A stretch of DNA of 64,000 nt from Sphaerochaeta pleomorpha str. Grapes (GCF_000236685.1 NC_016633.1:1550001-1614000); one strand, 5' to 3'. Counted from the first letter of the stretch, positions 12,833 to 26,110 are shown. The notes: a model not told the origin generated them from the sequence alone. Program-made: numbers and translations.

Positions 12833-12834
12833 TA

Positions 12835-12872
12835 AACAGCATCGCCTACCTGGTAGGGAAAGTGATGCTGTT
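12835..12872. terminator. Stem-loop between two convergent operons
   Basis: AACAGCATC (12835-12843) pairs with GATGCTGTT (12864-12872), with an inner CCTACC/GGTAGG stem. No strong T-run follows on either strand (GTTTATT on the minus side), so it is at best a weak bidirectional terminator. Confidence 0.5.
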
Positions 12873-12891
12873 CAGCTTTCATCAAGTACAC

Positions 12892-13878
12892 CTATCTGAT
12901 CAAATCACCAAGTTGTTCGCCCATTGAGCAGATATCAAGCCCTTTGGTGAATTGCAGGCAAGTCCCCGAAGGATATCTCACCTTCTCTACCCACCGTGGA
13001 GGAATCTGGGATAGACCGAACTTAGCCCCCAGGATGGCTCCGGCAACAGCTCCGATAGTATCGGCATCACGTGCAAAGTTACCAGCCAAAACCAAACCGC
13101 TTCTAAAATCCTGATGGGAAAGAGCAAGACAGGCAAAGGCAGCCGGAATGGCCTCAGCAGTAGTTGCCCAAACGCTGGCACGCAATTGGTCATGCAACGG
13201 CATCCAGCAATCCAAGATATTTCCCTGATGTTCCTCAATAATGGCAAAAGCCTGTTTCATATTGTAGTAAAGCCAGCTATCGGTTGGCATCGTCTCCATT
13301 GCAGCGGCGAAAATTTCCTCGAAGGAGCCATCAACCATCGCTACGCTCACAGCGGCAGCTACAGCCTGGGCTCCCCAGATACCATCCTCAGAGTGGCTTA
13401 TGGAAGCATCGACTTCGGCCATCAAGGCCGCTCTTTTCGGATCTCCGGCACATATGATTCCAACAGGTGGGATTCTCATGGCTGTTCCATCACTCATGTG
13501 GAACGTGTTGAACTTCCCTGACTGGGGAGGTCTCAACCCCTTTCTGAGATTGTTTGCAGCAGCAAGTTCGCTTGCACCACCCCGCTTATATTCATCTTGT
13601 ACCACTACATCTTCAAACCACGCCTTTACCACAGCATCTGTGGAAAGGTCGCCCTTACAGCGTATCAAAGTCTTTGCAGTCAACAAGGCAAATTCCGTAT
13701 CATCAGTACTCCAGGTAGCCCCTGCATTGAAATCGGTAATAAACCCATAGCTTTCCCGGTTCGCCTGCATCCTAGCAGCATCCCCGAAGGAATCGCCGAT
13801 AGCCAGCCCTATCAAAGACCCCACGGCCCTGTCTTTCACCAACCCCCTATCTGAGGCCAGTTCCTTTCTCGTTATCAT
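12892..13878 (-). CDS. ADP-ribosylglycohydrolase-fold protein
   Basis: 328 residues, normal length for the ARH/DraG family. The metal-binding signatures are GLAIGDSFGDAARM near residue 25, WSTDDTEFALLTAKTL near 57 and RDADTIGAVAGAILGAKFG in the last quarter, so both Mg2+ sites look intact. Family members remove ADP-ribose from proteins or small molecules, but many relatives in sugar operons have no tested substrate. It is the last gene of the GntR/AtuA/ABC operon, 12 nt after a second, larger ARH-type gene. A catabolic role in hydrolysing an N- or O-glycoside brought in by the transporter is an inference from this context. Confidence 0.88.
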   Translation of the reverse strand: MITRKELASDRGLVKDRAVGSLIGLAIGDSFGDAARMQANRESYGFITDFNAGATWSTDDTEFALLTAKTLIRCKGDLSTDAVVKAWFEDVVVQDEYKRGGASELAAANNLRKGLRPPQSGKFNTFHMSDGTAMRIPPVGIICAGDPKRAALMAEVDASISHSEDGIWGAQAVAAAVSVAMVDGSFEEIFAAAMETMPTDSWLYYNMKQAFAIIEEHQGNILDCWMPLHDQLRASVWATTAEAIPAAFACLALSHQDFRSGLVLAGNFARDADTIGAVAGAILGAKFGLSQIPPRWVEKVRYPSGTCLQFTKGLDICSMGEQLGDLIR

Positions 13879-13890
13879 ATATTCTCCCTC

Positions 13891-16011
13891 TTATAGTTCT
13901 TCCACAGACAAATTACCAAATCCACAACGCCCTGTGCCAAACAAGGCATACCCAACCATCCCATACGCAAAGGAACTATCGTTACAGGAAACTATTGGTT
14001 TTCCATCCATTTCAAACGACAACACAGTCCCAACCGCGCGAAAAACAAACGTATAGGCTTTTTCGTAAACCGGGGTGAAGGTTTCGCTTACCAATGCCTT
14101 GAACACCCCTTGTTCATGCTTGAAGATGCCTATTTTCCCCTGATGGAACCCTGCATAATACCCTCGTCTCGCCCCTTGAACCCTAACAGAAACCAGATGG
14201 GAAGTACCGGTATGGGGGAAAAGGGTACCCTTGACAACCACATCCTCTGCAAAATAATTCCCTGTATAGGATTCACCATGATCGAGAACCATCGCCTCCA
14301 TCATCATGGTATTGTTTTTATCTTTGACCAAATCCCAGGATCCATGATTATGGCTGAACGGGGTGATGGAGGCAAATTCCTTCTTCTGGCACTGTAAGTC
14401 GATTAAATACCTAGGCTTACCGGTGACTGTGAATCGATCAAGGTACAGACAGCCGAAGTCCCGATTCTTTGCAGGGGAATTCGACTCAAAAAGGATTCCG
14501 ACCTCATCAATCATAGATCCTCTCAGTGCAGGAAGGTCTCCATCGATGACAAAGGAAATATCTTTCCACCCTTCGTCCCAGACAATCTGTGAGCCGAAAG
14601 TGATGATTTCCTTTGTTGAGCTGTTCCTGACATACGGTGAAAGCGCGACACTTTCTCCACTGAACTTCTCGAGTCTGATTTTCATTGATACCGTTTGTCC
14701 CGGATAGATAGTCGGGGAGAATACAGGCATGTACCGTTCGTCATCAAAATCGGAGCGGCAATAGAAAGGCTTGTAAAAAATCCTGCACGACTGTGGACGA
14801 ACCATTCGGTCAAACAAAACTTCCAGTGCACCGTCACCACCAACTCCCGCTACTGCATTGTTGCGCAAACTACAGGAAAAGGTATTCGACAGCCGAAAAC
14901 CATGGGTCGACCCCGGAAGGGAAAAGTCAAAATCCAAACGACCTTCACAACTATCCAGTTCTTTTGGAATAACCTTTCCGTCAAGTCGAAGAGAAAGACT
15001 ATACAGTTGTTTGACATAGGTAGGGACATCCAGAATATTCAAGTAACCGGAAATCCCGGAAAGGACAATCATGTCATTGACCGGTTTTCGATAATGACCG
15101 GGAATGGAGGCAAGGCCACCTGCAACACCTAGGATGGAACCGACATTTCCGGCATTGCAGTCGGTATCCCAGCCTGCCATCGTGGCTATTTCGATTCCCC
15201 TGGCAAAGGTCCTGCCATACAGCAAAGCCATGATGCAAACCCCTGCATTGGGAATAATATGACAGACTCCAGGATACCTGTCATAGCCCCAGTTTTCCTG
15301 GAGATACTGCAGGCATTCTTTCCAATCAAGAGGATGTTCCCGATGGAACGCACGTACTGCTTCAACTACCTTGGCATAGGTACTTTCCGGGGGGATACAG
15401 GAAAGCCCTACAGCAATAAGTTCCTCGACGTTATCGGTTTCAAAAGCCTGGGCAATGCAGGCGGCTATAAAGGAAGCTCCATTGAGCCCATCGCCGTCAT
15501 GGGAAACACTGGCTGCTGTTTTTGCATAGGAAGCTGCCCTTGGGGGATTGCCAGGGAATACGAAACCCCAGGTATCGATAAAAATCTGGCCGCCAATCTG
15601 TTCTGCAAGGATTTTCCCGTTTGTTTCAATGGACCCGGAGGCAGGAGCGGGGATACCATTTTTCAGGTTCAAGTATGCAGTATGTTCGGTGCTGACCCCA
15701 TAGCCGCCCCACCAGAACATGCCTATGCCCTCACGCGAATAGTTCAGCCAAGCTTCGCTTACATCTTTTGCAGTGAGCGTTCGGTCAATTGCTCCGTCAT
15801 GTAAGGCACGGAGGAAGAAGACAGGGCCATTTACATCATCGTCTGCTGCAAAGTTCTTGAATTCCTTGACGTACGACTTGATATCGCCATAGAACCGTTC
15901 GATCCGTTCACTATTCCATAGCGTCGGTTCAACCGGGGCTCCCAGGCGAATACCGATGTTCATACCCAAAAAGCCTGCATAGATTTTCTCAAGAATGACC
16001 GATGTTTCCAT
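13891..16011 (-). CDS. Large ADP-ribosylglycohydrolase-fold protein with extra C-terminal region
   Basis: 706 residues. The first 330 or so form an ARH domain: GFLGMNIGIRLGAPVEP, AADDDVNGPVFFLRAL and AGWDTDCNAGNVGSILGVAG give the metal ligands. The remaining 370 residues do not belong to that family: they are rich in beta-type segments and end in a stretch (ending YALFGTGRCGFGNLSVEEL) that reads like a LamG/concanavalin-like beta-sandwich of the sort that binds glycans. No signal peptide is visible, so it should be cytoplasmic. It directly follows the binding-protein gene, separated by a stem-loop. Substrate unknown. Confidence 0.82.
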   Translation of the reverse strand: METSVILEKIYAGFLGMNIGIRLGAPVEPTLWNSERIERFYGDIKSYVKEFKNFAADDDVNGPVFFLRALHDGAIDRTLTAKDVSEAWLNYSREGIGMFWWGGYGVSTEHTAYLNLKNGIPAPASGSIETNGKILAEQIGGQIFIDTWGFVFPGNPPRAASYAKTAASVSHDGDGLNGASFIAACIAQAFETDNVEELIAVGLSCIPPESTYAKVVEAVRAFHREHPLDWKECLQYLQENWGYDRYPGVCHIIPNAGVCIMALLYGRTFARGIEIATMAGWDTDCNAGNVGSILGVAGGLASIPGHYRKPVNDMIVLSGISGYLNILDVPTYVKQLYSLSLRLDGKVIPKELDSCEGRLDFDFSLPGSTHGFRLSNTFSCSLRNNAVAGVGGDGALEVLFDRMVRPQSCRIFYKPFYCRSDFDDERYMPVFSPTIYPGQTVSMKIRLEKFSGESVALSPYVRNSSTKEIITFGSQIVWDEGWKDISFVIDGDLPALRGSMIDEVGILFESNSPAKNRDFGCLYLDRFTVTGKPRYLIDLQCQKKEFASITPFSHNHGSWDLVKDKNNTMMMEAMVLDHGESYTGNYFAEDVVVKGTLFPHTGTSHLVSVRVQGARRGYYAGFHQGKIGIFKHEQGVFKALVSETFTPVYEKAYTFVFRAVGTVLSFEMDGKPIVSCNDSSFAYGMVGYALFGTGRCGFGNLSVEEL

Positions 16012-16041
16012 AATTCCCCCGTTTTACAAACAAAGAAAGCA

Positions 16042-16071
16042 CACATGCCTTGAGCAAAGGCAAGGCATGTG
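16042..16071 (-). other. Intercistronic stem-loop after the solute-binding-protein gene
   Basis: Perfect 11-bp stem CACATGCCTTG/CAAGGCATGTG with an 8-nt loop, 10 nt past the stop of the LplA-like binding protein and before the large ARH gene. No T-run follows on the transcribed strand. Confidence 0.75.
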
Positions 16072-16081
16072 GCCGAGTACG

Positions 16082-17563
16082 TTAGTTCAAAACCGTTGCA
16101 AGGTATTTGCTGATTTCAGTACCACCTGCCTTGTTCCATTTTACGACGAATTCGTCGAAATCGGAAACAGGGCGTACACCACGGATGATATCAGTGGAAT
16201 ATTCGCGGTACAGCTTATCCATTGCATCTTTGAGGGGAAGCAAATCCTCAGGAAGCAAGACATTGGTATCTGGGGCAAAATACTTTGCAGCCTCATCCAA
16301 TGACTTGATAGCCGGAGCGGAAAGGACATCGCCTTCAACCTTGGAAAGATCGAGTCCATTCATGGTTGGCCAGAATTTTGCCCACCAGGAAGGGAATTTG
16401 TCAGTCAGGACGTACTTGCCGTTCTGGACGGTATAATGGATACCTTCCAGTCCAAGCTTGTCCAATTTGCGGCCGTCAGGCCCTGCCATATACTCCAATA
16501 CTGCCCAAGCTGCATCTTTGACAGGAGAACCTGAACTCATGGCGAAACCTCGTGATTCCTTGGTTACGTCGATGCTCTGGTATGCCTGGCTTATACCTTT
16601 GGCAGGAGGCAGAACTGCAAGGTCCACCCCTTGGGTTTCTTTCATCTTGTTATTATAGACATTGACGACATCCCCGGCAGTTCCTGCAACAAACCCGGCA
16701 GTACCTTCATAGAAGGCCTGTTCCATGGTGTCCCAGGTCTTGGTAACATATTCATTGTCCAAAAGCCCATCGGCATACAGTTTGGCATAGAAAGCAAGTT
16801 TATTCTTTGCTGCCATCGTTGCATCGGAATACACCCAGGTGCCGTTTTCTTTGACAATGGTAGCAGTAATGCCAAAGGCATGGTTGAAAACCGAATCGAG
16901 TTTGAGGATTCCGCCATCGGTGGTAATCGGCCACTGGCAAAGTCCACTTTCTTTCATTTCCTTGAACAGGGCATAGTAGGCATCTACACTTGGATTTTCA
17001 AGCAAAGCCTTGCTACTCTTCAAAGAAGCAAACCAGTCAGACCTCATGACAGGAATCTGCACGCGGGCAGGAGCGAGCCACATCAAGTACGGATAGTTTT
17101 TCAAAGCTGCTTTCGTCTGGTCGGGCATGATTGCCTTTACATTGGTTGACTTCTCTACATATGGAGTCAAATCCTCAAGCAGTCCATCAAGTGCCAAAGG
17201 CTGGTCATTTCCCTGGAAATACACCAGATCGGGTGCAATTTGACCAGTACGGAAAGCAATGGGAACAACCGTCTTGTACGACCCGGTCGGAGCACTGAGA
17301 ATTTCCAAATCAACATAATTGCCTTCTTTGGCCATTCCCTGCTCGATCAAAGCCTCCAGTTTACCAAGCTGATCAGCATCGGTAATAGGATCAACATCCT
17401 TGCACATGTACGTAACCTTAACCGGTGACGAAGCAGTTCCGATACCCTTTGAAGAGCCTGATGCTCCTGCTGCCTGGCTGGGGACTTCCTTCGCGCCCGT
17501 AGCAAATACGAACCCTGTACTTAAAAGCAGTACCAGAGCCACCACTACCTTTTTCTTTCCCAT
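16082..17563 (-). CDS. LplA-type extracellular solute-binding protein
   Basis: 493 residues, the longer (about 500) size of LplA/YtcQ binding proteins rather than the 420 of MalE types. The signal peptide is KKKVVVALVLLLSTGFVFA after the start. An upstream in-frame ATG at 17587 exists, but AAGGAGG lies just before ATG 17563, so 17563 is chosen. The protein includes a WAVLEYMAGPDGRKLDKLG segment typical of the family C-terminal half. It works with the LplB and LplC permeases encoded immediately upstream; members of this group import oligosaccharides or glycoside-like compounds. Confidence 0.93.
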   Translation of the reverse strand: MGKKKVVVALVLLLSTGFVFATGAKEVPSQAAGASGSSKGIGTASSPVKVTYMCKDVDPITDADQLGKLEALIEQGMAKEGNYVDLEILSAPTGSYKTVVPIAFRTGQIAPDLVYFQGNDQPLALDGLLEDLTPYVEKSTNVKAIMPDQTKAALKNYPYLMWLAPARVQIPVMRSDWFASLKSSKALLENPSVDAYYALFKEMKESGLCQWPITTDGGILKLDSVFNHAFGITATIVKENGTWVYSDATMAAKNKLAFYAKLYADGLLDNEYVTKTWDTMEQAFYEGTAGFVAGTAGDVVNVYNNKMKETQGVDLAVLPPAKGISQAYQSIDVTKESRGFAMSSGSPVKDAAWAVLEYMAGPDGRKLDKLGLEGIHYTVQNGKYVLTDKFPSWWAKFWPTMNGLDLSKVEGDVLSAPAIKSLDEAAKYFAPDTNVLLPEDLLPLKDAMDKLYREYSTDIIRGVRPVSDFDEFVVKWNKAGGTEISKYLATVLN

Positions 17564-17590
17564 AAAAAACCTCCTTGGTTTTTGCATAGC

Positions 17591-18481
17591 TTATTCTTTG
17601 ATTCCACCTGCCATTACATCCTTGGCGTAGAATTTCAACACAAACGGATAGATCAAGAGAATCGGAATGATGGCAACGATAATGGTCGCTCCCTTGAGAG
17701 CCCCATAGTCGACTCGGGCCATCGTATTGTAGTCAAACACATTCTGTTGTCCGATAATCGACACCGTATCGCCCAGTACGACAAACTGCCTCAAGATTAC
17801 CTGCAGGACCGTATCGGTCGACTTTTTGGTAAGGTAGATGCTCGCCCGGAAATATTCGTTCCACCTTACTACCGCATAGAACATGGTAATGGTAGCTATC
17901 CCGGCTTTGCTTAAAGGATAGAAAATCTTTGCAAGCATCTGCAGGTGGTTCGCCCCGTCAATGACGGCAGCCTCCACAAGCGATTGGGGAACCTTTTCGA
18001 AGTAGCGCATCATGATTACCAGGTAATAGACATTCACTGAGGTAACCAGGATTACCGACCATTTGCTACCCATCAATCCAAGTTGCTGCACCACGATGTA
18101 CTCAGGAACCATTCCCGGGTCGAAAAGCATCATAATGATAAGGAACACCATAATAGGTTTCTTCAAAGTCAGTTTCGGCCTAGTGAGGGCATAGGCTGCG
18201 GTTGTGGTAAGGAGAATGTTGACCAAGGTCCCTACCAGGGTAATGACAATCGAATTGATAAGGGATGGAACCAGTATGGGATGACTGAATACAATTTTGT
18301 AATTCAGCAAATCAACATCCTTGGGAATAATCGATAGGCCTCCCATAGAAGCTGACAGTTCCGGTGATGACAGTGATTTAGCCAAAATATTCAGCAAAGG
18401 CACCAACATTGTCAACGTGATCAGAAACAAGAAGGCAACGAGAACAACCTGGGTAACGGTAATAGGTTTCCTATGCTTCAT
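17591..18481 (-). CDS. ABC transporter permease, LplC/YtcP type
   Basis: 296 residues from ATG 18481, whose ATGA overlaps the stop of the preceding permease by 4 nt; the frame is open further upstream but only inside that gene. About six membrane segments begin at VVLVAFLFLITLTMLVPLL. The EAA loop is LVEAAVIDGANHLQMLAKIFYP, and the sequence ends in the usual FAKDVMAGGIKE that marks LplC proteins. No ATPase is encoded in the operon, as is common for this transporter group. Confidence 0.93.
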   Translation of the reverse strand: MKHRKPITVTQVVLVAFLFLITLTMLVPLLNILAKSLSSPELSASMGGLSIIPKDVDLLNYKIVFSHPILVPSLINSIVITLVGTLVNILLTTTAAYALTRPKLTLKKPIMVFLIIMMLFDPGMVPEYIVVQQLGLMGSKWSVILVTSVNVYYLVIMMRYFEKVPQSLVEAAVIDGANHLQMLAKIFYPLSKAGIATITMFYAVVRWNEYFRASIYLTKKSTDTVLQVILRQFVVLGDTVSIIGQQNVFDYNTMARVDYGALKGATIIVAIIPILLIYPFVLKFYAKDVMAGGIKE

Positions 18482-19419
18482 GACCACACCCCCGTTCCGG
18501 TCATGCGCTTCGAAAAGACATGGGTTCCCCAAACAAGGCAAACACCTACCAGCCCTTTGATCAAGCTGACGGCAGTGGCGAGGGAATACTGCCCCCCCTC
18601 GATTCCGATACGATAGATATAGGTATCGAGGATATCAATGGTACTTTCGACCGCTTGGTTGGAAAAGTTGAACACTTGGTCAAACCCGGCATTGAGAAAG
18701 AAGCCCAGATTCAGGATAAACATGGTAATCATAGGAATAAGCAAAGAAGGAAGTATGATGTGCTTTATGATTATCCATCTCGATGCCCCGTCAATTTCGG
18801 CAGCCTCATACAAGGCCGGTGATATGGATATGATTGCAGTAAAATAAATAATAGAATCCCAGCCCATACTTCTCCAAGCTTCACAAAACATCAATATCCA
18901 TCGGATTTTTAAGCGGTCAGTCATAAAATCAATTTTATCAAGTCCCAATACACCCAGCACTTGATTCAATCCGCCTCCCAAAGAAAGGGCACTGATCCAA
19001 ACCCCTGCTATGACTACCCAGGACAGGAAGTGGGGAAGATAGGAAATCACCTGGACATACTTACGAAACCTGAAGGAACGAACTTCATTGAGTAGCAAGG
19101 CAAAGATAACAAAGGCGGGGAACAGGAGCACATATTTCATAAAACTGATAATCAGGGTATTGGACAGAATCTGCTTGAATCCAGGGCTCCTGAAAATCAT
19201 CTTGAAGTATTTCAATCCTACAAAGGGCCACGTGCCCCTCGCTTTGAATTGGAAAAAAGCAAGGCGCATGTTCACTATCGGCAACAACCGGAAGAGTACA
19301 AAAAAGACCAGCGTAGGGAGCAGGAGAAGATAGAGCATTTTTTCAGCCTTTATTCTCTGCCAATAGGATGTTTTATGTACCAGCAAATTTCGGTCTAACG
19401 CTTTTCTTTGTTTTTTCAT
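18478..19419 (-). CDS. ABC transporter permease, LplB type
   Basis: 313 residues. Start ATG 19419 lies 9 nt after AAGAGAG; an in-frame TTG two codons earlier is unlikely. Membrane segments begin at MLYLLLLPTLVFFVLFRLLP. The EAA loop reads LYEAAEIDGASRWIIIKHIILP, and NTLIISFMKYVLLFPAFVIFALLLNEV is typical of LplB. It pairs with the LplC permease that follows. Confidence 0.93.
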   Translation of the reverse strand: MKKQRKALDRNLLVHKTSYWQRIKAEKMLYLLLLPTLVFFVLFRLLPIVNMRLAFFQFKARGTWPFVGLKYFKMIFRSPGFKQILSNTLIISFMKYVLLFPAFVIFALLLNEVRSFRFRKYVQVISYLPHFLSWVVIAGVWISALSLGGGLNQVLGVLGLDKIDFMTDRLKIRWILMFCEAWRSMGWDSIIYFTAIISISPALYEAAEIDGASRWIIIKHIILPSLLIPMITMFILNLGFFLNAGFDQVFNFSNQAVESTIDILDTYIYRIGIEGGQYSLATAVSLIKGLVGVCLVWGTHVFSKRMTGTGVWS

Positions 19420-19439
19420 GCACAAACTCTCTTTGACTG

Positions 19440-19751
19440 CTAGGGTATGAGCAGTTCCATCAAAGGGGCATGTTGTTGGGCCCCATATACATCCGAGTCA
19501 CCACAGGTACCGGAGGATACCGAGCGGTGATACGTAATCTTGATCCCCAAGGCGGAATCAAAGAAATAGATACCGCATAGCATCCCTTTTTTCAGGTGAT
19601 ACAATTCATTTATCGTCTGTTCGTTCAAGACCCCGCTCTGCACCACTCTCTGATACGTTTCCTTTTCGGAAAAGAAAATGTCGAGGGTGATCAGGAAAGG
19701 ACCGCTATTCTTGCTGCGAAGCATCTGGGCCAAATCTACCAACCTGTCCAT
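19440..19751 (-). CDS. DUF4387-family protein, partner of AtuA
   Basis: 103 residues, the usual size for DUF4387. Its ATG shares one base with the AtuA stop (TGATG), so the two are translationally coupled; in-frame codons upstream fall inside atuA and are ignored. Recognisable segments are LAQMLRSKNSGPFLITLDIFF near the N-terminus and a Cys-Gly-Asp-Ser-Asp-Val-Tyr-Gly box near residue 85. DUF1446/AtuA and DUF4387 proteins are known to occur side by side in many genomes and are likely two subunits of one enzyme, but the reaction is not established as far as I know. In this operon they probably act on the compound imported by the LplABC transporter. Confidence 0.8.
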   Translation of the reverse strand: MDRLVDLAQMLRSKNSGPFLITLDIFFSEKETYQRVVQSGVLNEQTINELYHLKKGMLCGIYFFDSALGIKITYHRSVSSGTCGDSDVYGAQQHAPLMELLIP

Positions 19752-21124
19752 CAGACTTTTCCTCCTCTTTCCCACCATTGCCAGGGAAACAACTCAGCTG
19801 GGTCTGAGACCTCCATCAGATGGTACACGGAGAATTCGTACACTGCCCCAAAGTTGATATCGCTCGGGGCAAAGGGAAAAGCCAGGTTCCCTGCCGTTGC
19901 CTTCCTTCCCTCATATCCATAGTGCATAAAGGTCGATCGCACGGAAGCACAAATCGAAGATGCAATATCCTGGGTTTGCGCAAGGACTTCAAATACTACG
20001 CATAGTTCATGGCCAGCCATGTTGTTAGGCTCAAGTTCCCCCATTACCCCATTTTTCCCATAATTAAGGAAATTGATCGAATAGGAATCCCGGTCAATAT
20101 CGTTGTACTGTTCCTGTACGCTTTCTTTGACCAGGCCTTCGACTTCCTCTATCATTGCAATCAATATAGGGTCACGAACCCCGGCAACGACGAAGGACCG
20201 ATAGGCAACCCTTCTTGCCCCCTCAAGCTTGATACAGTAAGGGTCGGTAGGGAATAAACGGCTATTGCTTACTTGCACCCTGTTTTCCCCGACCTGGGTG
20301 AAAACACATTGGGAAAGGTCCATCTCAATTCCAGGACCATGCAAAAGATACGGGTGGTCTTTTTCATAGAAGGTATGGGCTGCAACGCTCAGCGTCGAGC
20401 ATTTGCGCTTTGGGTCACAGGGGTACACTTCAAAGTCATGCTCATGGAGAACGCCCATCATGCAATCTTTCGTTGTCCCTGGGTTGCAACAAAGGGCCCC
20501 ACATTCGAGCACCTTTCCCATATGGTAACTTAAGCCCGGGTCAAAACCCGCATGGATTCCCACTGCTGCAAAGGGTGCAGGGTCATAGGCTCTTCCGCAT
20601 ACAATAAGGTCAGCTCCCGATTCAAGGACTTTCATAATAGGTTCTATCCCCATCTGGGCCACAACTCCTGTGGTTTGGCTGAGAATCTGGGCATCCAATG
20701 GAAGATAGAGAGCGTCGAGGGGGGTTATTTGATTCTTTGCAAGCTTCTCCAGAATAATCTCATTGGGAATATCGGCCCAGATAAGGGCGGTTTTTGGCTG
20801 CAAAGACCTATTTTCATCCAAAATCTCCGCAATAATATCGAGAGTCCACTCGATATGACTCTTTCCTCCGCTTCCCCCGGCAGATCCGATAAGGACAGGA
20901 ATGTGTAGACTCTGCCCACCTTCAAGGATTCGTTTCAAATCTTTCTTTGCAGCCCTGCGGCTGACTATGGCTGTCTTTGCCCCAAGCTTGTGGGGTCCTG
21001 CATCAGTGGAACCTGCATCGACAACGATTGCATCCGGCTTATCAGCCAACCCTGCGGCAAATGAAGTATCGGGAAAGCCGTACCCAAGGATCCCACAGGG
21101 TGAGAGAATCTTGAAGCTTTTCAA
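19751..21124 (-). CDS. AtuA-family (DUF1446) protein
   Basis: 457 residues, full length for the acyclic-terpene-utilisation AtuA family. Characteristic parts are the N-terminal GILGYGFPDTSFAAGL, DAIVVDAGSTDAGPHKLG, LIGSAGGSGGKSHIEW and VCGRAYDPAPFAA. The family name comes from a Pseudomonas terpene pathway, but there is no other terpene gene here, so the name should not be read as a function. It overlaps the regulator gene by 4 nt and DUF4387 by 1 nt. The glycine-rich and Asp/Ser-rich boxes suggest a small-molecule enzyme. Its place at the head of a transporter operon points to a catabolic step. Confidence 0.85.
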   Translation of the reverse strand: MKSFKILSPCGILGYGFPDTSFAAGLADKPDAIVVDAGSTDAGPHKLGAKTAIVSRRAAKKDLKRILEGGQSLHIPVLIGSAGGSGGKSHIEWTLDIIAEILDENRSLQPKTALIWADIPNEIILEKLAKNQITPLDALYLPLDAQILSQTTGVVAQMGIEPIMKVLESGADLIVCGRAYDPAPFAAVGIHAGFDPGLSYHMGKVLECGALCCNPGTTKDCMMGVLHEHDFEVYPCDPKRKCSTLSVAAHTFYEKDHPYLLHGPGIEMDLSQCVFTQVGENRVQVSNSRLFPTDPYCIKLEGARRVAYRSFVVAGVRDPILIAMIEEVEGLVKESVQEQYNDIDRDSYSINFLNYGKNGVMGELEPNNMAGHELCVVFEVLAQTQDIASSICASVRSTFMHYGYEGRKATAGNLAFPFAPSDINFGAVYEFSVYHLMEVSDPAELFPWQWWERGGKV

Positions 21125-21813
21125 TTTGCTTCCTCCACTTCCTTGGCATGGTGTCGAATCCTGACCATATCCATGTGGTGGGTCATAGCCCTATGGGCGC
21201 CTTCTTTGTCCCTGTTTGCAATTGCCTGGACAATTGCCTCATGTTCCTCGGCAATCTGGACAAGACTCCCTTCCTGTTTCTTGTTCTTGGCAGCAAGCTC
21301 TTCGATGAGATCATAGTAGGTATCGATGAAATTCATGTAGAAAATATTTCTTGATGCCTGGGCAAGCTTATAATGAAAGTAATGGTCAAGGCTGAACTGC
21401 CCGGGAAGGGAACTGCCATCGGCTTTCAATGTCGAGCAGATTTCCTCTATTTCTTCATCTGATGCCCGATCGATGACAATTTCAACCATCTTTGACTCCA
21501 AGGAATCCCTGAAATCAAGTAAATCATGGAAGGTTGCATCTTTGAGGGCATCGGAAACGGGTTTTGAGAGTTTTTCAAAAATATCTTGTTGTATATAGGT
21601 TCCATCCTTTGTTTTGCGACGGATATAGCCCAAGACCTGAAGCTGTATCATCGCTTCCCGGATTACTCCCCTGCTGACAGAGAACTTTTCAGAGAATGTG
21701 ACTTCACTGGGTAGTTTTTCCCCCGGTTTCAACTCACCGTCATGAATCAATTGTAAAATCTGGGAGACTACTTTATCAGAAAGCCTTTCACTTCTCAGTG
21801 GTGTATATTTCAA
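21121..21813 (-). CDS. GntR regulator, FadR subfamily
   Basis: 230 residues starting with TTG 21813; AAGGAG is 8 nt upstream and no ATG fits. N-terminal winged helix-turn-helix (KLPSEVTFSEKFSVSRGVIREAMIQLQ) and a C-terminal all-helical FCD-type domain (LLDFRDSLESKMVEI, SLDHYFHYKLAQASRN, EEHEAIVQAIANRDKEGAHRAMTHHM) that in this subfamily binds a metal and a carboxylate-type ligand. As first gene of the operon, with a perfect inverted repeat between its -10 and ribosome site, it almost certainly controls its own operon. Confidence 0.93.
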   Translation of the reverse strand: MKYTPLRSERLSDKVVSQILQLIHDGELKPGEKLPSEVTFSEKFSVSRGVIREAMIQLQVLGYIRRKTKDGTYIQQDIFEKLSKPVSDALKDATFHDLLDFRDSLESKMVEIVIDRASDEEIEEICSTLKADGSSLPGQFSLDHYFHYKLAQASRNIFYMNFIDTYYDLIEELAAKNKKQEGSLVQIAEEHEAIVQAIANRDKEGAHRAMTHHMDMVRIRHHAKEVEEAN

Positions 21814-21830: not shown

Positions 21831-21849
21831 CTATTTGTAGGACAAATAG
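21831..21849 (-). promoter_or_regulatory. Operator of the GntR/AtuA operon
   Basis: Perfect inverted repeat CTATTTGT-AGG-ACAAATAG. Its centre TTGTAGGACAA matches the short FadR-type GntR operator style. It starts next to the -10 box at 21850-21855 and ends 18 nt before the start codon, so binding would block transcription. Confidence 0.8.
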
Positions 21850-21930: not shown

Positions 21931-24822
21931 TTAGCTTTCGATTACCTTCTGCAGGAAATCCAAAGTCAATTCCCTGGTGTCAGAAAGCACGGCATCTGCC
22001 TCTGGCAACCCTTGCTCGGTTCCAATTCCTACAGCCTTCATGCCTGCCTTCTTGATAGCGGTAATCCCTGCCTTTGCATCCTCAACACCGATACAGTTCG
22101 TATACCAGACACCTATCTGTTCAGCTGCAGCGAGGAAAATATCGGGTTCTGGCTTTGATACCTGAACCTTACGGACATCGGCAACTGCATCGAATAAATC
22201 AAGAATCCCCAGTTTCAGACAGACAATCTCTGCATTCTTGCTTGCAGAGGCCAAGGCAGTCTTGATTGAGTTCTTTTTTAAATCGACAAGCAGTTCCCTC
22301 ATACCAGGATAGACATCATCGGGAGTCAGCGTATCAAGCGAAGCTACGTAGGCCTTGTTCTTTTGCTTGAGTACTTGCTTTTTTTTGTCATCTGGCCACG
22401 AAACCTTGTTATGCTCAAGGATAATCTCGAGGGAAGCCTCACGACTCACTCCAAGCAGCCTCTGGTTCACCTCTTCATCAAAGTGCAAGCCATTTTCGTC
22501 AGAAACAGCTTTCCAGGCAAGGAAATGAAGCTTGGCAGTATCTACAATAACACCATCGAGATCAAAAAGAACTCCCTGCAGGGAAGGAGACAGGGAATAA
22601 CACCGGCTCTCACCTTCTTCAAGGATACAATGCAAATTCCGGTGCACCAAGGAAAGAGAAGTCCCTTCGACAAGGCTGTAACAAACCTCTTCCCTCGAAA
22701 AATGAACTTTCAACACAGCAGGGCCAAGCCTCAGGCAGAAAGTAACACTCTTCCACGAATCGGGAATATGTGGGTTGAAACTGAATTCACCCTTCCAGTC
22801 CCTGAAACCGGCAAACCCATAGACAAGGGCCATCCAGCTTCCAGCCATCGACGCTGTATGAATGCCATCGACAGAATTTCCATGGATATCGTCAATATCC
22901 ATGCGCACCGTTTTCTTGAAATAGGCCCACGCTTTGAGAGGCTGGAACGATTCACTCGCCATAATGCTCTGAATGCAGTGGGAAAGCGAAGAGTCACCGG
23001 TGGTATACGGCTCATAAAAGGCAAAGTTCCGGATTATCTCCGCCTTGGTAAACAAACCGGAAAGCAGAAACTGAGCCAGAACAAGGTCAGGTTGTTTGAG
23101 AACCCGGTGCCGGTAGATGACCAGCGGATGATAATGGAGCAATAGAGGATAGTTCTCCTTCGGGGTATCGGCAAAAGGCCAATCGGCTCGATCCAGGAAA
23201 GAGTCATCCTGTGCATATATTCCCTTTTCACTGTCAAAGGGAATATACATCCCCTGGGCAGCCTCTTTCCAATTTTGCAGTTCATCGCTTCCAAGCTCAA
23301 GGGGAAGTTTCTTTCCCGAATCAAGGTATTGTTCCACCAGCCTGATAGAAAACAGGAGATTTTCCCGAGCCATCAGATTCGTATAGGCATTGTTGTTCAC
23401 ACAGGCACTATATTCATCCGGGCCTGTTACTTCATTGATGCAGAAGCTATTGCCCTTTGACAGAATAAAACTACCCAGGCTGACCCACATCCTTGCCGAT
23501 TCAATAGCCATCTCAATAATCCAGGAAGGAATTTGCCTTTTGGTGGCCTGCAGATATTTCTGTGTGGCATAGAGAATATCGGCATCGATATGATACTGGG
23601 CTGTGCCAGCAGGATAATAGGCGCTGCACTCATTTCCGCTGATAGTTCTCCAGGGAAACAGTGCCCCCTTGAGGTTCATGGTAGCTGCCCTCTGACGGGA
23701 CTGTGGCAAAATGGAATAGCGATATCGTAACAGCTGTTCCGCCAAGTCCGGTTTGAGATACGTAAAGACAGGCAGGGCATAGGATTCAGTATCCCAGAAA
23801 TAATGGCCTTCATACCCTTCCCCAGTCAGACCCTTCGCAGCCATGCTGGTTGCACCGTCTTTCCCGCAGGATTGTAGCAAATGGAACAAGTTGAACTGCA
23901 AGGCCTGTTCTGATAGATCATCGCCCTCGATCCTTATGCGCGCCAAGGCCCAGAAAGAATCGAGATACGATTTCTGTTCCTCGGCAATGGTGAGAAAACC
24001 CTTGAGAGAGAATTTGTGGGCTAAAAAACGTTCATCGTCACCTACCGTACAGTAGGCAATGTATTTGGTAAGGGTTACTGATTCCCCTTCCTTGAGCAAA
24101 AAAGAATAGCCCAAGGCAAGCTCGGGAGGGGAAGGGACAATCTGCAGGGGGTTCTTCGAATAGGTATGAAACGCGGCACCCCGTAGGGAAAGTTTTGTAT
24201 TACGGGTCCTTGCAATAAAGGAAAGCTGGTTTTCCTCAATATGCGTTTCAAGGATTTCCAGAGGGTTTGATGAAAATTTCGACCCAACCCTGGGGTCCTC
24301 GTCGGCAGATCTGTTGTGCGCAGTAACATCAATAAAACTCTTGAGATAAAGGGGAGTATGGTCTTTCTTTGCCGTAACCGTATATTCAATGACCGCACAG
24401 TTCTTCTCTATAAAAGAAACAAGGCGTCGCGAAGTTACTACCACCGAAAAACCGTCCTCACTCGTCCAATCGACAACACGTGTCAGGATACCGGTATGGA
24501 AATCAAGATTGCGGGAGAAAGCATTGACAGTTCCCTTTTTCAGGGAAAAAGGCCTCTCCCCTACCATTAGCTCAATACGCTTGGGATCGGGCAGGTTGAG
24601 AATAGTCTCATGGTTCTTGGCATACCCATAGGCTGTTTCGCCATAGGTTATCGGTTCGCTGTCATAGAACCCATTTATATAGGTTCCCTTATGATAGGTA
24701 CCCTCCTTCTCCTCGAAGTCCCCTCGAAATCCCAAATACCCATTTGCTGTGGTATACAGGGTTTCATTTCGCGCCACTAGCCGCTCATCATACATCTCAG
24801 AACCGAATTGCATCGTATCCAT
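21931..24822 (-). CDS. GH65 disaccharide phosphorylase fused to beta-phosphoglucomutase
   Basis: 963 residues. Residues 1 to about 740 are a GH65 phosphorylase: (YDERLVARNETLYTTANGYLG region), substrate motif EGYEGHYFWDTESYALP, and the general-acid Glu in INEVTGPDEYSACVNN. From about residue 748 a complete HAD-type beta-phosphoglucomutase follows: GVLFDLDGVIVDTAKLHF with the nucleophile Asp, LLGVSREASLE, ASASKNA, KPEPDIFL and GVEDAKAGI. GH65 enzymes split maltose, trehalose, kojibiose or nigerose with phosphate to beta-glucose 1-phosphate; the second domain turns that into glucose 6-phosphate. Usually these are two separate genes. The disaccharide cannot be told from sequence alone. It lies downstream of the LacI gene. 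Confidence 0.94.
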   Translation of the reverse strand: MDTMQFGSEMYDERLVARNETLYTTANGYLGFRGDFEEKEGTYHKGTYINGFYDSEPITYGETAYGYAKNHETILNLPDPKRIELMVGERPFSLKKGTVNAFSRNLDFHTGILTRVVDWTSEDGFSVVVTSRRLVSFIEKNCAVIEYTVTAKKDHTPLYLKSFIDVTAHNRSADEDPRVGSKFSSNPLEILETHIEENQLSFIARTRNTKLSLRGAAFHTYSKNPLQIVPSPPELALGYSFLLKEGESVTLTKYIAYCTVGDDERFLAHKFSLKGFLTIAEEQKSYLDSFWALARIRIEGDDLSEQALQFNLFHLLQSCGKDGATSMAAKGLTGEGYEGHYFWDTESYALPVFTYLKPDLAEQLLRYRYSILPQSRQRAATMNLKGALFPWRTISGNECSAYYPAGTAQYHIDADILYATQKYLQATKRQIPSWIIEMAIESARMWVSLGSFILSKGNSFCINEVTGPDEYSACVNNNAYTNLMARENLLFSIRLVEQYLDSGKKLPLELGSDELQNWKEAAQGMYIPFDSEKGIYAQDDSFLDRADWPFADTPKENYPLLLHYHPLVIYRHRVLKQPDLVLAQFLLSGLFTKAEIIRNFAFYEPYTTGDSSLSHCIQSIMASESFQPLKAWAYFKKTVRMDIDDIHGNSVDGIHTASMAGSWMALVYGFAGFRDWKGEFSFNPHIPDSWKSVTFCLRLGPAVLKVHFSREEVCYSLVEGTSLSLVHRNLHCILEEGESRCYSLSPSLQGVLFDLDGVIVDTAKLHFLAWKAVSDENGLHFDEEVNQRLLGVSREASLEIILEHNKVSWPDDKKKQVLKQKNKAYVASLDTLTPDDVYPGMRELLVDLKKNSIKTALASASKNAEIVCLKLGILDLFDAVADVRKVQVSKPEPDIFLAAAEQIGVWYTNCIGVEDAKAGITAIKKAGMKAVGIGTEQGLPEADAVLSDTRELTLDFLQKVIES

Positions 24823-25087: not shown

Positions 25088-26098
25088 TTACAGAATCTCA
25101 GTGGAATTCCTTTGGTGCAAGGTCAATTCGATCGTGTTCTTTTTAGGGGGTTTTCCCGGTTCCTTAATCCTCCAAAGAATCGTTTCCGCTGCAAGCACCC
25201 CCGATTCCTCCAAGCTTTGGTTGACAGTAGTCAAATTTACGAATTCAGCCATTTCAATATCATCAAACCCTACGACACCCAGTTCGTCGGGAACCGTAAT
25301 CCCTAGCTGTACGGCACATTTAAGAATCCTTATCGCAAGTGTATCACTGGAGGCAAAAAGACAATCGGGACGATTTGGGCGGTCGAGAATCTTCATGATC
25401 CCGGCATTGGAAGCCTTAGCTACATTATCGCCGGTCCAAACATGCTCCATTTTCAAGGAAATCCCTTTTGAGGCAAAGTAGGAAGCATACCCTCCAAGAC
25501 GTTCCTCGGTCGAATGGGCTGCATAGGGACGACGGGAGGCCTCCCCGACAAAACCAGGGATCCTATAACCATTGGCAAAGAGAAACTCTGCAACCAAAGA
25601 GCCCCCCTCAATGTTTTTAATGACTACGCTGTCAAAACCTTGGACATCGGTCTCCACAAAACAGACAGGAAGGCCAGAATTCTTCAGCTTCGTTACCATT
25701 GCATCCGACAAGGAAAGGCAAAGGAGGATAAGGCCGTCGACCCGCTTGCTTCCGATAAGCATATCGATATACCCCTGCAAATCCTCAATACTCTGTACGG
25801 CATAGATGACCAGCTCGTAATGCTGTCCGGTTAAAACAGAGGCTATTCCTTTGAGCCTTTCCATGAATGACGTTTCGGTAAAGAAGGGGGCAACTACCCC
25901 GATTTTCTTGAATTGTTGCCTTGCAAAGGCAACGGCATCGGCCTTTGGGACGAACTGCAAGATTTCGATCGCCGAAAGGATCCGTGCCTTCTTATCTGGT
26001 GCAACCATTGAAGGTTGATTCAGTACCCGTGATACGGTCGCAGGGCTTACCTGAGCTAGTTTCGCTACATCATAGATGGTAGGTTGCTTGGATTGCAT
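25088..26098 (-). CDS. LacI-family transcriptional regulator
   Basis: 336 residues from ATG 26098. CAGGAG is 5 nt upstream and covers an earlier in-frame GTG (26104), which is therefore rejected. N-terminal helix-turn-helix TIYDVAKLAQVSPATVSRVLN is textbook LacI; the sugar-binding core has GVVAPFFTETSFMERLKGI, RVDGLILLCLS, GFVGEASRRPY and ELGVVGFDDIEMAEFV. Its promoter carries a long perfect palindrome, so it represses itself. The GH65 fusion gene downstream on the same strand has matching ACCGGT sites and is the probable target; the ligand is probably the disaccharide or glucose 6-phosphate. Confidence 0.94.
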   Translation of the reverse strand: MQSKQPTIYDVAKLAQVSPATVSRVLNQPSMVAPDKKARILSAIEILQFVPKADAVAFARQQFKKIGVVAPFFTETSFMERLKGIASVLTGQHYELVIYAVQSIEDLQGYIDMLIGSKRVDGLILLCLSLSDAMVTKLKNSGLPVCFVETDVQGFDSVVIKNIEGGSLVAEFLFANGYRIPGFVGEASRRPYAAHSTEERLGGYASYFASKGISLKMEHVWTGDNVAKASNAGIMKILDRPNRPDCLFASSDTLAIRILKCAVQLGITVPDELGVVGFDDIEMAEFVNLTTVNQSLEESGVLAAETILWRIKEPGKPPKKNTIELTLHQRNSTEIL

Positions 26099-26110
26099 TG
26101 GCACTCCTGA

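Follow-up and report, generated by a model that had tools for sequence, protein, structure and literature searches.

A conserved operon of Sphaerochaeta pleomorpha predicted to take up and break down a small riboside of a hydroxy-polycarboxylic acid

The 64,000-nt stretch of the Sphaerochaeta pleomorpha str. Grapes genome analysed here (NC_016633.1:1550001-1614000, hereafter the window) contains an eight-gene operon. It encodes a GntR/FCD-family regulator, an AtuA-family protein with its DUF4387 partner, two ABC permeases (LplB, LplC) with a solute-binding protein (SBP), and two proteins of the ADP-ribosylglycohydrolase (ARH) fold, ARH706 and ARH328. Its products probably import and degrade a small riboside with a beta-hydroxy polycarboxylic acid as aglycone; citrate is the most likely acid, and citramalate a possible one. 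The sequence itself shows the gene set, its conservation and homologies, the exchange of lyases and the operator, and from these we infer the substrate, the reactions and the anomer. A previous, sequence-only reading had seen in the operon a complete uptake and breakdown route for a glycoside-like or nucleoside-like compound; that interpretation is partly supported.

Proposed pathway

The AlgQ-like SBP and the LplBC permeases would import an acidic glycoside intact, a shared ATPase being assumed. Two cytosolic ARH-fold proteins would hydrolyse its ribofuranosyl bonds, giving ribose and the acid, as suggested by their motifs, their fold and their linkage to ribokinase. The ribose would be converted to ribose-5-phosphate by a ribokinase, which is encoded in the operon in most relatives and elsewhere in the present genome. 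AtuA/DUF4387, as a lyase of the CmlAB type, would split the acid without coenzyme A (CoA) into acetate and a 2-oxo acid, namely oxaloacetate from citrate or pyruvate from citramalate. The GntR/FCD protein may act on the TTGTNNNACAA operator to control the operon, and a substrate-derived acid presumably relieves this control. In its most specific form, which we put forward tentatively, the proposal is an undescribed pathway for ribosyl-citrate (ribocitrin-like) compounds. The ARH proteins would be ribosidases for small molecules, and AtuA/DUF4387 would be a citrate lyase independent of CoA and of an acyl carrier protein (ACP), exchanged in the course of evolution for classical citrate lyase or for modules with a CoA-dependent lyase.

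Conservation and kinship of the AtuA/DUF4387 pair

The sample started from relatives of the window AtuA and comprised 80 genome loci, of which the 65 longer than 18 kb were taken as complete; Rhizobiales were sampled via plasmid records only. AtuA, DUF4387, LplB, LplC and the SBP occur together with ARH706 in 60 of the 65 complete loci, in Spirochaetota, Bacilli and Clostridia (ARH706 in 61, importer genes in 61). Seen from the ARH706 side, 20 Paenibacillaceae loci have an ARH706 orthologue, and 19 of them carry AtuA/DUF4387. The gene set is thus conserved across phyla, and the objection that it might not be kept together elsewhere fails. All ARH706-bearing AtuA loci have a partner, which is ARH328 (27 loci), a third type termed ARHc (31) or both (3). 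A few AtuA loci have accessory genes for HAD phosphatases, PhnP-like metallo-hydrolases or esterases; in some Clostridia (L050, L055 and L061) a gene for a PhnP-like hydrolase of the metallo-beta-lactamase fold lies within the AtuA-ARH cluster. Literature searches, with the subscription literature mostly outside their coverage, found no description of a pathway of this kind.

On sequence grounds AtuA/DUF4387 is one two-subunit enzyme type and a homologue of the citramalate lyase CmlAB. AtuA matches chain A (CmlA) of PDB entry 9erq (E 1.3e-136), DUF4387 matches chain B (CmlB; E 2.7e-25), and both match a second CmlA/CmlB entry, 9evf. The suggestion that the two proteins form a single enzyme is thereby upheld, and the pair, listed before as of unclear function outside a few cases, can be assigned to a known kind by this homology. 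As in CmlAB, the two subunits are encoded by neighbouring genes, nearly all of each chain is conserved, and the acetate-releasing, CoA-free reaction type is likely common to both enzymes. The nearest relatives of the window AtuA are from Sphaerochaeta and other Spirochaetota. In the AtuA tree it falls in a separate clade, sister to CmlA (support 98). Ninety-nine alignment columns are invariant in both clades, and nine differences between them are fixed, among them K46 and K219.

The genomic setting differs. Genes near-identical to CmlAB on a Salmonella plasmid, and relatives on a Prevotella plasmid, share their operons with genes for glutamate mutase, methylaspartate ammonia-lyase and class I fumarase, a methylaspartate-mesaconase setting where (S)-citramalate must be cleaved. 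This agrees with the citramalate step described in PMC4682846; at that time (2015) no role had been assigned to the DUF1446 gene at the same place in the operon, and it was unsettled what becomes of citramalate in E. coli. No genes for glutamate mutase, methylaspartate ammonia-lyase or mesaconase were found around the window operon, in which the partners of AtuA/DUF4387 are importer and ARH proteins. Across pathways and bacteria, the citramalate step is filled by CitDEF, by a CoA-transferase with a CoA lyase, or by DUF1446 (PMC4682846 and the loci studied here).

Other arrangements of the pair were also seen. At L072:8228-11674, AtuA/DUF4387 is found without ARH, beside an RraA-like aldolase, a small dehydrogenase and a peptide-type ABC transporter. 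Locus L238 (G1178) combines homologues of ARH706 (44%) and ARH328 (54%) with LplBC, a distant AtuA (36%) and DUF4387 (40%); by sequence, it is a second AtuA subfamily in the same gene setting. In L211:13227-14897 (G956), the start of AtuA is joined in frame to the end of the SBP in an open reading frame (ORF) of 556 aa, and DUF4387 and the permeases are missing. A deletion seems to have disrupted the operon here.

The predicted acid and its lyase

Loci without AtuA/DUF4387 usually carry another C-C lyase in its place (REPLACEMENTS). On Rhizobiales plasmids (about a dozen records), a run of LacI, permeases, SBP, ARHc, ARH706 and UgpC precedes a family III CoA-transferase and a CoA lyase of the CitE-like kind, whose nearest solved structure is 5vxc, a mitochondrial citrate-lyase-beta-like protein; one locus (L123) has the CoA-transferase only. 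In Paenibacillaceae genome G157, a CitE-like lyase is accompanied by an ADP-forming acyl-CoA synthetase (CoA ligase) and a bona fide ribokinase. In Clostridia genome G477, genes for CitD, CitE, CitF, CitC and a CitX-CitG fusion, all past the curated citrate-lyase cut-offs, lie directly downstream of ribokinase, ARH706 and ARHc on one strand. The CoA-ligase and citrate-lyase replacements are each represented by one genome. The three CitE lineages are separate in the tree. A CitE gene is absent from all 80 AtuA loci, and two have distant CoA-transferase matches, far from the operon. Since unrelated enzymes that release acetate or acetyl-CoA from a beta-hydroxy acid replace AtuA/DUF4387, the lyase step appears to be tied to the ARH product.

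Citrate lyase holds the role of AtuA/DUF4387 in the otherwise similar G477 cluster; it differs in being an unrelated, ACP-carrying enzyme that is not part of the window operon. G477 CitF falls among citrate lyases associated with Tct tricarboxylate transporters (100/100) and is separate from the citramalate lyases, which are linked to mal and mesaconase genes (100/100); the placement of CitE agrees, more weakly. This grouping favours citrate. The window genome itself has a separate TctCBA-CitDEF-CitX/CitG citrate-use cluster (L210, G000:C1:2799000-2810000).

Several observations weigh against the proposed pathway. Some Rhizobiales loci (L117, L118, L120 and L125) have ARH proteins and no recognised lyase nearby, and the citrate-lyase replacement is known from a single genome. 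CmlAB, the relative of AtuA for which a function has been named, acts as a citramalate lyase and not a citrate lyase. Aerobes with a tricarboxylic acid cycle, such as the Rhizobiales and Paenibacillus, should have no need of citrate cleavage, a point in favour of citramalate or another acid. The ARH-linked AtuA clade has K46 and K219 fixed, and these lysines could bind an additional carboxylate; both are also found in L072 and L073, whose AtuA has no ARH partner, and in L238, an ARH-linked locus with a distant AtuA, K46 is replaced by Tyr, for which reasons these residues were downgraded as proof of citrate. Finally, the pathway as proposed does not account for the pairing of two ARH types, which may point to two ribosyl bonds or two anomers.

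The same pathway could instead act on (S)-citramalate or another C5/C6 beta-hydroxy acid, with AtuA/DUF4387 a citramalate lyase like CmlAB. In its favour are CmlAB as the closest function-named homologue, with its shared invariant columns, and the presence of the same modules (CitDEF, CoA-transferase with CoA lyase, DUF1446) at citramalate steps (PMC4682846 and the loci studied here); it would also suit the CitE-like lyases of aerobic Rhizobiales and Paenibacillus better than citrate does. It is opposed by the grouping of G477 CitF and CitE and by the nine fixed differences from CmlA. We consider it somewhat unlikely, and place citrate ahead of citramalate, not firmly. A literature search on ribosides of citramalate returned nucleoside chemistry only. 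Malate was rejected as aglycone by reasoning, because it enters central metabolism without any lyase.

Ribocitrin, as its name suggests, joins ribose and citric acid; substrates of this sort would therefore exist, and it is a candidate substrate of the right kind. It is a dextransucrase inhibitor of Streptomyces, and the paper on its detection and structure is among those cited in PMC13136089.

The predicted sugar and the ARH-fold proteins

A ribokinase gene is present in 47 of the 65 complete AtuA loci, and the ARH proteins therefore most likely release ribose. Several of the in-operon kinases score above the TIGR02152 ribokinase equivalog cut-off, and many, from spirochaete and clostridial loci, fall under it (222-238 bits). 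In Rhizobiales the ribokinase gene is downstream in L117, and divergent and upstream in L118 and L125. A second ARH706 subfamily of Paenibacillaceae is found beside ribokinase and LacI. No ribokinase is encoded among the eight genes of the window operon, so the route is incomplete in the window and the claim of a complete one falls. The genome has ribokinase-like genes outside the operon; one of the kinases (L108:5794-6678, G000:C1:1208793-1209677) is 45.5% identical to an in-operon spirochaete kinase.

The kinases below the cut-off would also suit another cis-diol furanose, e.g. apiose or psicose, handled by a ribokinase-family enzyme of shifted specificity, as would the CBM66-like C-terminal domain of ARH706, CBM66 being a fructoside-binding module. 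With several in-operon kinases above the cut-off, and one locus of ARH706 paralogues linked to nucleoside catabolism, a sugar other than ribose is unlikely. The similarity to CBM66 and levanase was set aside as evidence for fructans, as the operon is without fructan enzymes.

The locus in question, L177 of Paenibacillaceae genome G119, contains in one run an importer, two ARH706 paralogues, a PfkB kinase, a nucleoside hydrolase, a ribokinase and an adenine deaminase, and is likely a nucleoside operon with ARH-fold proteins. It lends something to the notion that a nucleoside- or nucleotide-like compound is what the importer and the ARH proteins handle, with AtuA/DUF4387 acting on an unrelated acid made from it. 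No base-catabolism genes were recognised inside the AtuA-ARH operons, and the position of AtuA can be taken by lyase modules of other descent, which links the lyase step to what the ARH proteins release; we find this reading quite improbable. Of the glycoside-like or nucleoside-like substrate envisaged earlier, an imported small riboside would remain, with an aglycone that is most likely a hydroxy-polycarboxylic acid and not a nucleobase.

Both ARH proteins keep the dinuclear-metal aspartate motifs of the ARH/DraG family, and their PF03747 scores are 178.5 and 179.0 bits against a cut-off of 26.2. Near-invariant in orthologues are STDDT57-61 (TDD58-60) and RDADT270-274 (DxDT271-274) of ARH328, and DDD57-59 and DTDC282-285 (DxDC) of ARH706. 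The model of ARH706 (pLDDT 82.7) consists of an ARH domain (1-345), a beta-sandwich (about 358-531) and a CBM66-like C-terminal domain (535-706), with Z of 29.2 to ARH3 (6g1p) and 21.2 to CBM66 (4azz). No export signal was seen on inspection of ARH706 and ARH328. Fold and Asp/Thr metal motifs are shared with ARH1/ARH3, DraG and MJ1187; in contrast to these, the window ARH genes adjoin a sugar importer and in relatives also a ribokinase, and ARH706 has two additional beta-sandwich domains and no Thr in front of its Asp pair. The context of importer and ribokinase suggests that the ARH-fold proteins act on a small molecule, in keeping with the sequence-only reading. That their substrates are ADP-ribosylated proteins or peptides, and that their genes only travel along with an operon for sugar and organic acid, is very improbable despite the fold and metal motifs of ADP-ribosylhydrolases, given the tight linkage to importer and ribokinase over several phyla, the two extra carbohydrate-binding-like domains of ARH706 and, decisive for its low standing, the lack of a partner, no ADP-ribosyltransferase gene being recognised among the recurrent clusters.

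A second importer operon of the same genome (L109:8436-13710, G000:C1:3449435-3454709) encodes an ARH706 paralogue of 711 aa, 38% identical, and no AtuA. In staphylococcal SCC elements, genes for an ADP-ribosylglycohydrolase, a purine/pyrimidine-type permease and a ribokinase are adjacent in S. haemolyticus and S. epidermidis (PMC3637587); this trio may be another ARH ribosidase unit.

The SBP has an N-terminal export signal visible in its sequence. Its model (pLDDT 88.5) most resembles proteins that bind chondroitin disaccharide or alginate oligosaccharides (best VIA Z 24.8 to 5gub, 23.6 to AlgQ1/AlgQ2), a fold kinship that would be consistent with an acidic ligand, without being specific. 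SBP fold and paired permeases are those of the CUT1 importers of acidic oligosaccharides (AlgQ1/AlgQ2 of Sphingomonas; the glycosaminoglycan SBP 5gub); the window SBP differs in being just 16-19% identical over the aligned fold, and no ATPase gene is found among the eight genes of the operon. Lpl-type importers share an ATPase, so that an in-operon ATPase is not strictly defining. The Rhizobiales counterpart operons include ugpC.

If the proposed pathway is true, ARH-fold proteins in sugar operons would be ribosidases and would not serve to remove ADP-ribose from proteins. The AtuA/DUF4387 family would reach beyond citramalate and include a citrate-type lyase that needs neither CoA nor the prosthetic group phosphoribosyl-dephospho-CoA. 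Ribose-linked citrate-like compounds would be common enough in soil and gut to serve several phyla as a dedicated food source, though apparently little known. A testable function is thus offered for two poorly described protein groups.

Operon structure and neighbouring genes

The window sits in a 3.59-Mb single-contig genome. Eight ORFs were confirmed on the minus strand, from 21813 to 12892, and Pfam profile searches returned the families as first described (Table 1). With the longest ORFs, the intergenic distances are -4, -28, +14, -64, +3, +70 and +12. DUF4387 likely starts at Met10 and LplC at Met21 (about 18481), and these internal starts bring the spacing near the -4 to 70 nt given before.

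The perfect operator reported earlier was found again as an 8-3-8 inverted repeat, CTATTTGT-CCT-ACAAATAG, 17 nt upstream of the gntR start. Its core recurs 5' of gntR in 13 of 16 relatives examined, which argues that the operator is not due to chance. A single promoter had also been described, which the analysis does not support; a sigma-70 consensus scan from the operator to the upstream gene reported none.

Table 1. Genes and predicted regulatory features of the operon, in window coordinates
Feature	Coordinates	Strand	Evidence
GntR/FadR-type operator CTATTTGTCCTACAAATAG, predicted	21831..21849	.	Perfect 19-bp inverted repeat
GntR/FCD-family transcriptional regulator	21121..21813	-	Pfam GntR 61.6 bits, FCD 81.7 bits
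AtuA-family large subunit, predicted CoA-independent citrate/citramalate lyase subunit A	19751..21124	-	PF07287; PDB 9erq_A
DUF4387 small subunit, predicted lyase subunit B	19440..19778	-	PF14330 127.6 bits, cut-off 27; PDB 9erq_B
LplB-type ABC permease	18478..19425	-	PF00528 (BPD_transp_1)
LplC-type ABC permease	17591..18541	-	PF00528 (BPD_transp_1)
SBP, AlgQ / chondroitin-disaccharide type	16082..17587	-	SBP_bac_1; structure model
Intercistronic hairpin, 11 pairs, in the 70-nt SBP/ARH706 gap	16042..16071	-	
ARH706, ARH-fold hydrolase, predicted ribosidase	13891..16011	-	ADP_ribosyl_GH PF03747
ARH328, second ARH-fold hydrolase, predicted ribosidase	12892..13878	-	ADP_ribosyl_GH PF03747
Terminator-like hairpin between operon end and convergent Gfo/Idh gene	12833..12873	.	

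The minus strand at 21931-24822 encodes a protein of the GH65 phosphorylase type with a fused HAD domain (beta-phosphoglucomutase-like). The gene is adjoined by that of a LacI regulator (25088-26104), and the two belong to a sugar operon separate from the AtuA-ARH operon.

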